From NCBI GenBank assembly GCA_024638165.1, contig JAHEKV010000003.1, positions 62,001 to 126,000 of the forward strand: a stretch of DNA of 64,000 nt. The letters are read 5' to 3'. The DNA is from Flavobacteriaceae bacterium. Lineage in GTDB: Bacteria > Bacteroidota > Bacteroidia > Flavobacteriales > Flavobacteriaceae. Under the pieces are notes generated by a model, which was not told the origin of the DNA, ran no database searches, and was given only the letters and a program-made list of their open reading frames with translations. The first letter of the stretch is position 1. The number at the start of each line of letters is the position of its first letter. A program made the translations under genes and the position numbers. Positions 5,678 to 6,478 of this stretch are shown here, in pieces.

Positions 5678-5714
5678 AAAAATAATAAAGGCCTGTCGCG
5701 ATGACAGGCCTTTA
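5678..5714 (-). terminator. trp operon attenuator terminator
   Basis: On the minus strand a perfect 12-bp stem (TAAAGGCCTGTC paired with GACAGGCCTTTA, loop ATCGC) is followed by a U-rich tail, TTATTTTT. It sits between the Trp-rich leader ORF and trpE, so it should stop transcription before the structural genes when formed. Its left arm overlaps the proposed antiterminator partner (segment 3). Confidence 0.93.
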
Positions 5715-5756
5715 CATATATCTATAGCCGATAATCATCGCATTACTACGACGATC
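5699..5756 (-). promoter_or_regulatory. trp attenuator alternative pairings (segments 1:2 and 2:3)
   Basis: Segment 1 (GATCGTCG, 5756-5749), just after the Trp codons, can pair with the first part of segment 2 (CGATGATT, 5740-5733), including G-U pairs. Segment 2 can instead pair with segment 3: CGATGA with TCATCG (5704-5699), and GGC (5729-5727) with GCC (5709-5707). Segment 3 includes the left arm of the terminator, so 2:3 pairing excludes termination. A ribosome stalled on the Trp codons would mask segment 1 and free segment 2. The pairings are read from sequence; their use is inferred. Confidence 0.8.
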
Positions 5757-5790
5757 TCCACCAGTTCTTATTTGTTCTTATTTGAATCAT
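5746..5790 (-). CDS. trpL: trp leader peptide
   Basis: A 14-residue ORF, MIQIRTNKNWWRSS, with tandem TGG codons at positions 10-11 and a TAG stop, followed by mutually exclusive hairpins and the terminator before trpE. This is the enteric trpL arrangement: charged tRNA-Trp lets the ribosome finish and the terminator form; scarcity stalls it on the two Trp codons. The ATG lies only 5 nt after a TATATTTG -7 box, so the peptide may be read from a nearly leaderless transcript. A GGAG sits immediately upstream but too close to act as a normal SD. Confidence 0.9.
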   Translation of the reverse strand: MIQIRTNKNWWRSS

Positions 5791-5795
5791 TGCTC

Positions 5796-5803
5796 CAAAT
5801 ATA
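5796..5803 (-). promoter_or_regulatory. trp operon promoter -7 box
   Basis: TATATTTG on the minus strand matches the Bacteroidetes sigma-A consensus TAnnTTTG. No convincing -33 TTG lies at 17-20 bp. Transcription would begin 4-7 nt downstream, at about the trpL ATG. Confidence 0.75.
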
Positions 5804-5839: not shown

Positions 5840-6478
5840 TTATATCGTTTCAAATAAAACGGAAGGGTCTAAACGCACCTTTTTAGCGTGTTGATTTTGA
5901 TCTTCTTCAGCTCTTCTGCCTAAAGCCAATAATACCGACACATGATAGTCTGAGGCTTCTAATTGAAGAATTTTATTCACCTCTTGTATATCAATCCCTT
6001 CAAGGGCACAGGTGTCGATTTTCAATTCAGCTGCGGCTAACATTCCAAAGCCTAAAGCGAGATAGGCTTGCTTTTCAGACCAAGATTTTTTGGCTTCCTC
6101 AGACCATTGGCTGAAAACTCCTTTCATGAAGTTGCTGTATCCAGAAACCTCTTCTTCTGTAAGTCCCCTGGTTTCCATACTGAGAGTAATGTATCGATCA
6201 ATAAGATCATTGTCAAAACGTTTTAGGCTTGCAATAGCCAACAGTTTAGAGGCATTTACAATTTGTTTTTGTCCGTATCCAGCCCCTTGCAGTTGAGTGC
6301 GAGTTTCAGGGTCTTCAATCTCTATAATTTTAAAGGGCTGTAAGCCGTAGGAAGTGGGTGCCAGTCGAATGGCCTCTTTAACTGCTTGGTAATCTCTTTC
6401 GTCAATCGACGCCTCCTGATTAAATCTTTTGGTGGCATATCGCCAATCCAGGTCATTCAGTAGTTCTTCTCTTTTCAT
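5840..6478 (-). CDS. NAD(P)H-dependent nitroreductase family oxidoreductase
   Basis: FMN-dependent nitroreductase-fold protein, 212 residues from ATG 6478 (MKREELLNDL). Family features are the N-terminal RYATKRFNQE, the APTSYGLQPFKII FMN contact region, and the C-terminal helical LLALGRRAEED. The frame is open 183 nt further upstream, but that extension is low-complexity and basic, runs through the divergent gene, and lies above the TAACTTTG promoter box, so I rejected it. The substrate cannot be deduced; members reduce nitroaromatics, quinones or flavins. Possible own promoter at 6494-6501. Confidence 0.88.
   Translation of the reverse strand: MKREELLNDLDWRYATKRFNQEASIDERDYQAVKEAIRLAPTSYGLQPFKIIEIEDPETRTQLQGAGYGQKQIVNASKLLAIASLKRFDNDLIDRYITLSMETRGLTEEEVSGYSNFMKGVFSQWSEEAKKSWSEKQAYLALGFGMLAAAELKIDTCALEGIDIQEVNKILQLEASDYHVSVLLALGRRAEEDQNQHAKKVRLDPSVLFETI

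Follow-up and report, generated by a model that had tools for sequence, protein, structure and literature searches.

A probable ribosome-mediated trp attenuator with a tandem-Trp leader peptide upstream of trpE in a Flavobacteriaceae genome, compared across the family

The region preceding trpE in the window (the whole stretch of 64,000 nucleotides that was analysed) most probably attenuates transcription of the trp operon by a ribosome-mediated mechanism, a reading to which we give a probability of roughly 0.9. It was preferred over other explanations because short open reading frames (ORFs) with tandem Trp codons recur in the trpE upstream regions of the family. The parts of the locus, their conservation, their pairing potential and their spacing were taken from the sequence, and from these we infer the start site, translation, ribosome stalling and termination in the cell. 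The following features were located:

5826-5823, minus strand: weak -33-like TTTT, placed by eye (putative)
5803-5796, minus strand: -7 promoter box TATATTTG, an exact Bacteroidetes TAnnTTTG consensus
5791, minus strand: putative transcription start, one base ahead of the leader ATG, from the F. psychrophilum box register
5790-5746, minus strand: leader peptide ORF MIQIRTNKNWWRSS, 14 codons, with stop codon TAG at 5748-5746
5763-5758, minus strand: tandem Trp codons TGG TGG
5756-5747, minus strand: segment 1 GATCGTCGTA, partner of segment 2 (helix compared with shuffles)
5742-5734, minus strand: segment 2 TGCGATGAT
5715-5685, minus strand: intrinsic terminator hairpin, 31 nt
5705-5697, minus strand: segment 3 GTCATCGCG, covering the terminator loop, flanked by the end of the 5' arm and the first 3'-arm base
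5684-5678, minus strand: U-tract of the terminator
5669-4254, minus strand: trpE, opening the operon and encoding anthranilate synthase component I (TIGR00564)
4254-3682, minus strand: trpG
3697-2687, minus strand: trpD
2690-1911, minus strand: trpC
1906-1271, minus strand: trpF
1280-90, minus strand: trpB
ending at 5840, minus strand: nitroreductase-like gene, co-directional with trpE

The first-pass annotation had proposed a promoter, a 14-residue leader with tandem Trp codons, mutually exclusive segments and a perfect 12-bp terminator with a U-tract, and all of these were located on the minus strand. The terminator comprises 12 Watson-Crick pairs as proposed, plus one G-U pair (6 of the pairs being G-C), with a 5-nt loop and the tail TATTTTT; an intrinsic terminator so placed, between leader ORF and trpE, is one of the marks of a trp attenuator. 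The predicted fold of the 126-nt leader RNA has an energy of -40.6 kcal/mol; shuffled sequences averaged -21.6 (z -5.8), and 0 of 200 of them were as low. The genes run in the order trpE-G-D-C-F-B toward the left edge of the window. The trpE product scored 427.8 bits against TIGR00564, under the model cut-off of 517.7, and is 98% identical to a TrpE from the same genus; TrpG, TrpD, TrpC and TrpB each reached a curated cut-off, unlike TrpF.

The family search covered 120 Flavobacteriaceae genomes (119 genera), with a TrpE match in 109, and upstream DNA was taken from 107 of these (G066 and G079 had no usable upstream DNA). A short ORF with tandem Trp codons was found in 104/107 regions, window included, so the expected conservation of the Trp codons in homologous leaders was confirmed. 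In the other three regions, L027 had no ORF called as a contig edge cuts the region, yet three Trp codons are visible; in L091 no ORF was called and the examined 450 nt reach only the terminator and the preceding stretch, behind an inserted ORF; and no leader was found in the trpE upstream region of L108. The first Trp run, as counted by script, holds three codons in 90/104 leaders, two in 13 (window included) and one in a single leader (L093), where three Trp codons lie further along. Eight codons stand ahead of the tandem Trp codons in 83 of the 104. A second set comprised 80 named loci chosen for the similarity of their TrpE, many genera being represented by more than one species, and 74 of them carry a tandem-Trp ORF, among them Pontibacter (Cytophagales). 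Of the six misses, L139 and L183 are short of upstream DNA, L119, L120 and L168 carry an inserted stretch (by eye), and L188 has no leader ORF upstream of trpE. The family counts indicate that trp attenuation is general rather than exceptional among the trpE-bearing Flavobacteriaceae genomes sampled.

Some loci of the two sets depart from this layout. The Pontibacter Trp leaders (L162, L170-L175, L178 and L180) have an AWWWH core and mostly lack TAnnTTTG near the ATG (a gap of 27-52 nt or no box in 8/9, and 12 nt in L175), so promoter placement differs in them. In three Bacteroidia MAGs (L182, L184 and L185) the leader-like ORF has a WLWW core, ends in KSIWLWWGNTFLC and lies 239-271 nt before trpE, farther than in nearly all other loci. 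The small ORF inserted between attenuator and trpE in L091 (115-411, minus strand) encodes a protein of 98 aa with a GIY-YIG domain (Pfam PF01541, 61.9 bits) and is adjoined by GC-rich palindromic stretches (by eye); like stretches occur in L052, L119, L120 and L168, whose resemblance to that of L091 was judged by eye only. A short repeat close to ctgaaataaattcagca was seen by eye after the terminator, directly before trpE, in L056, L058, L060, L067, L074 and L089, which represent several genera.

Two mutually exclusive helices were found in the window. The 1:2 helix (GATCGTCGTA:TGCGATGATT) has an energy of -10.8 kcal/mol, with 0/200 shuffles as good, and the 2:3 helix (TGCGATGAT:GTCATCGCG) an energy of -11.5 kcal/mol, with 1/100 shuffles as good; segment 3 here consists mainly of the terminator loop, to which three nucleotides from the end of the 5' arm and a single 3'-arm base are added. 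The 2:3 pairing was tested in 100 leaders (the terminator finder failed on L096, L098, L102 and L107), and L006 and L099 were excluded for a weak helix from the spacing, 1:2 and ribosome-fold counts, leaving 98. Pairing of segment 2 with the terminator loop and its edges was matched by at most 5/100 shuffles in 94/100 leaders, which upholds the conserved alternative hairpin looked for by the first-pass annotation, and the mean helix energy was -7.8 kcal/mol versus -2.2 for shuffles. When segments and loops were re-paired among the 100 leaders, with segment 2 set by distance alone, 0/1000 permutations reached the true mean. L099, which has no good helix, pairs poorly with its own loop. The compensatory changes that had also been anticipated were found in part: relative to the usual TCGTGA:TCACGA, both sides are changed in the window (GCGATGA:TCATCGC), in L094 (TCGCAAT:ATTGCGA) and in L103 (GGATTCAG:CTGAATCC), but among leaders with variant loops the own partner beat both swaps in only 6/12.

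Two helices were considered as general elements and rejected. The 1:2 helix does not, across the leaders, exceed chance (20/98 leaders at no more than 10/200 shuffles, median rank 44 of 200) and is weak except in the window and a number of relatives. The helix of the Rfam model, between the Trp codons and a downstream stretch, reached the same level in 7/98 leaders (median rank 71 of 200) and was left out of the mechanism because it is close to chance in this test.

The position of segment 2 follows the Trp codons. It starts 17-19 nt past the last Trp codon in 86/98 leaders (15 nt in the window). Measured from the first base of the stop codon, its start lies anywhere between 9 nt upstream and 13 nt downstream, a spread of 22 nt over the 98 leaders. 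The distance to the Trp codons, fixed and independent of the stop codon, is a strong sign that it is these codons that set the switch; part of its constancy comes from shared ancestry. No earlier description of the 17-19 nt spacing, of segment 2 pairing with the terminator loop, or of the short gaps between promoter and ATG given below was found in the searchable literature.

According to the mechanism that we propose, RNA polymerase would start about 1 nt before the leader AUG, and the 5' end of the nascent RNA would load a ribosome, which would read the 14-codon leader. When charged tRNA-Trp is plentiful, this ribosome would reach the UAG and cover segment 2, the terminator would form and transcription would end before trpE. 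When charged tRNA-Trp is scarce, the ribosome would stall at UGG UGG and cover segment 1; segment 2, left unpaired, would seize the upper part of the terminator (the loop and the end of the 5' arm) on its emergence, and polymerase would pass the U-tract. If no ribosome loads, 1:2 pairing would let the terminator form.

These states were examined by ribosome-constrained folding, with the footprint taken as 11 nt beyond the A-site codon; in the available portion of a paper from the Lyubetsky group, the ribosome is described as covering up to 12 nt. With this footprint a stall on the last Trp codon leaves 4-11 nt free before segment 2 in the 98 leaders, and a ribosome at the stop codon reaches 1-23 nt beyond the start of segment 2. 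At loop emergence, the probability of the 2:3 pairing, P(2:3), exceeded 0.5 in 98/98 leaders with the ribosome on the first Trp codon, 97/98 on the last, 1/98 at the stop codon and 35/98 with no ribosome, the corresponding values for the window being 0.91, 0.91, 0.00 and 0.03. The folding therefore predicts that a ribosome on the Trp codons exposes a mutually exclusive antiterminator and that one on the stop codon blocks it. In the window, with a stalled ribosome, the antiterminator holds 5 nt past segment 3 and is gone 8 nt past it. Once complete, the terminator prevails at equilibrium wherever the ribosome is placed and also in its absence (median P(2:3) 0.00), so that antitermination, as modelled here, would have to be kinetic.

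The first-pass annotation had also remarked that the leader ATG lies only 5 nt from the -7 box and had suggested that the ribosome may load on a leaderless RNA. The spacer is indeed GAGCA (5 nt), between the box and the ATG at 5790, and the box at 5803-5796 is the one exact TAnnTTTG in the 200 nt that precede the leader ATG. In the available text on F. psychrophilum (PMC9723704), TAnnTTTG is placed at -12 to -5, and under this register the 5-nt gap would correspond to a 5' UTR of 1 nt, with a putative start site. The leaderless reading of the window leader thus draws on promoter spacing; with partial support from the comparison below, it is plausible that the window leader and some relatives are leaderless.

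An exact TAnnTTTG lies within 60 nt of the leader ATG in 102/104 family leaders; its density over 464 kb of the window's genome is 0.026 per 60 nt of strand. Gaps between box and ATG in these 102 leaders were 0-3 nt in 2, 4-6 nt in 29, 7-13 nt in 28, 14-26 nt in 39 and more than 26 nt in 4, an earlier in-frame ATG after the box having been used for L006, L022, L077, L085 and L105, which shortens their gaps; the gap is exactly 5 nt in 22/102. The baseline, drawn from 20-kb samples of 40 relatives, consisted of the 136 box-bearing genes among 569 ORFs, with 7, 15, 7, 74 and 33 genes in the same classes. A gap of at most 13 nt was found in 59/102 leaders versus 29/136 ordinary genes (Fisher p = 9e-9; p = 7e-4 for 4-6 nt and 2e-6 for 7-13 nt), a comparison in which the baseline relies on a crude ORF caller and guessed start codons and the leaders share ancestry. 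In the second named set, which is clustered, short gaps are not clearly above the baseline, with a gap of 4-6 nt in 10/67, a gap of at most 13 nt in 19/67 and no box in 7/74 leaders. The suggestion of leaderless loading is thus plausible in view of the excess in the 102 leaders, but weakened by the second set, and it has precedents in Sinorhizobium and Streptomyces.

Ordinary genes with a 4-6 nt gap numbered 3/49 in the genomes of the 15 leaders with a gap of at most 6 nt, and 6/43 and 6/44 in genomes with longer leader gaps; the leader gap therefore does not track the general habit of the genome. When a gap of at most 6 nt was mapped as a label on a quickly built TrpE tree (94 rows), it required 9 changes, of which well-supported branches force only 2; with 36/91 inner branches weak and a long-branch warning, this tree neither shows nor excludes a single origin of the short gap. 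Leaderless initiation special to the trp leader was rejected, as 16/91 box-bearing ordinary genes in the window's genome share the 4-6 nt gap.

The same attenuator could instead have a normal 5' UTR, the true start lying farther upstream and the leader not being leaderless, which we consider improbable. Long gaps are common enough to be compatible with it (at least 14 nt in 43/102 family leaders and 48/67 of the second set), and F. psychrophilum mRNAs, in the available part of the source, have a median 5' UTR of 24 nt with 5.5% leaderless; in B. thetaiotaomicron about 3.7% have a 5' UTR under 10 nt. Against this stand the sole exact -7 box, 5 nt from the ATG, the 22 leaders with this very gap, and the 16/91 ordinary genes in the window's genome, from which such starts seem usable. 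A broader proposal, that many Flavobacteriaceae trp attenuators were selected for a leaderless or ultra-short leader mRNA, combined with loop capture at 17-19 nt from the last Trp codon, is possible but doubtful, its estimate having been kept low because the second set has no clear short-gap excess. If it were true, a leaderless leader would allow immediate ribosome loading on the nascent RNA without a Shine-Dalgarno site, and the short-UTR signal, if real, would offer a natural system for studying the timing of Shine-Dalgarno-free translation against transcription.

The window was also compared with known RNA families. The Rfam model RF01692 (Bacteroid-trp) aligned from end to end (1-131) with 5810-5703, scoring 33.6 bits at an E-value of 0.063, short of its cut-off of 49; the best E-value in the scan (0.02) belonged to STnc370, an enterobacterial sRNA, on the other strand, below its own cut-off and at chance level. 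RF00513 (Trp_leader) did not match the window at any E-value up to 10. Sensing of tryptophan or tRNA-Trp without a ribosome, by a T-box, a TRAP-like protein or a riboswitch, with the ORF secondary, would agree with a complete terminator that forms with or without a ribosome; it is very unlikely, since the tandem Trp codons and their distance to the segment are conserved and neither T-box nor riboswitch is among the 16 Rfam matches in the window at E up to 10. That the hairpin is a mere terminator or RNA-processing site for upstream transcription, as might serve the nitroreductase-like gene ending at 5840, with coincidental Trp codons, is scarcely credible and already contradicted by conservation, the Trp codons recurring in place (104/107 family regions, 74/80 named loci) and box, ORF and terminator remaining together.

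Under strict filters RF01692 matched 29/296 genomes of a phylum sample and exceeded the cut-off in 27; Flavobacteriaceae account for 27 of the 29, and the window's own genome had no match under these filters. Among control genomes 1/14 matched, a Bacteroides. Matches lie directly before trpE in G001, G032 and G119. Of 20 chosen family loci, 7 pass the cut-off, 7 score 34-44 bits and 6 are unmatched at E up to 1. The window leader lies where the family lies, upstream of trp genes in Bacteroidetes, and by position and sequence it appears to be a ribosome-mediated trp attenuator related to Bacteroid-trp; formal RF01692 membership was withheld because its score is under the cut-off, as for plain relatives. 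The Rfam model thus misses divergent members such as the window leader.

The trp leader of E. coli has 14 codons with Trp-Trp, the 1:2, 2:3 and terminator pairings, and a longer 5' UTR with a Shine-Dalgarno site. The window resembles this enteric attenuator (RF00513) in its logic, with the same three pairings and a 14-codon Trp-Trp leader, and differs in that segment 3 lies mostly in the terminator loop. It shares with Bacteroid-trp the position before trp genes and the order of AUG, Trp codons and terminator start, but its Trp codons number two, against three in most family leaders, and its segment 2/loop sequence is different; the Rfam consensus structure stops before the 3' arm of the terminator and has no 2:3 pairing.

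Bacteroid-trp (RF01692) was described by Weinberg et al. 2010 (PMC2864571, available portion). In the accessible parts of two F. psychrophilum papers, a Bacteroid-trp element is said to precede the trp operon and is likened to the E. coli leader (2019), and strong clues for leader-peptide attenuation before amino-acid operons are mentioned (2021 transcriptome paper). The trpL/rnTrpL of the alphaproteobacterium Sinorhizobium meliloti encodes a 14-aa trp leader on an RNA reported to start with the ATG (PMC7298713, available text), and the window may likewise have a leaderless attenuator mRNA. In Streptomyces lividans, trpL1, a WWW leader before trpE, is reported to be transcribed leaderless and to have a seemingly Rho-independent terminator (PMC8079986, as far as available); it differs from the window in being actinobacterial, with a monocistronic trpE. 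No description of leaderless attenuators in Bacteroidetes was found in the accessible literature, most subscription journals lying outside the scope. An enteric architecture outside Proteobacteria, initially implied to be a surprise, is therefore not one, given Bacteroid-trp since 2010, the F. psychrophilum mentions and the Streptomyces trp leaders. The window holds a divergent trp attenuator of a kind already known; what the short-gap signal and the spacing of 17-19 nt add to it is modest.

One family leader (L103) has no Bacteroid-trp match at E up to 1 and a sub-threshold match to RF00513 (31.6 bits, cut-off 41); its segment 2/loop helix has 8 bp and an unrelated sequence.
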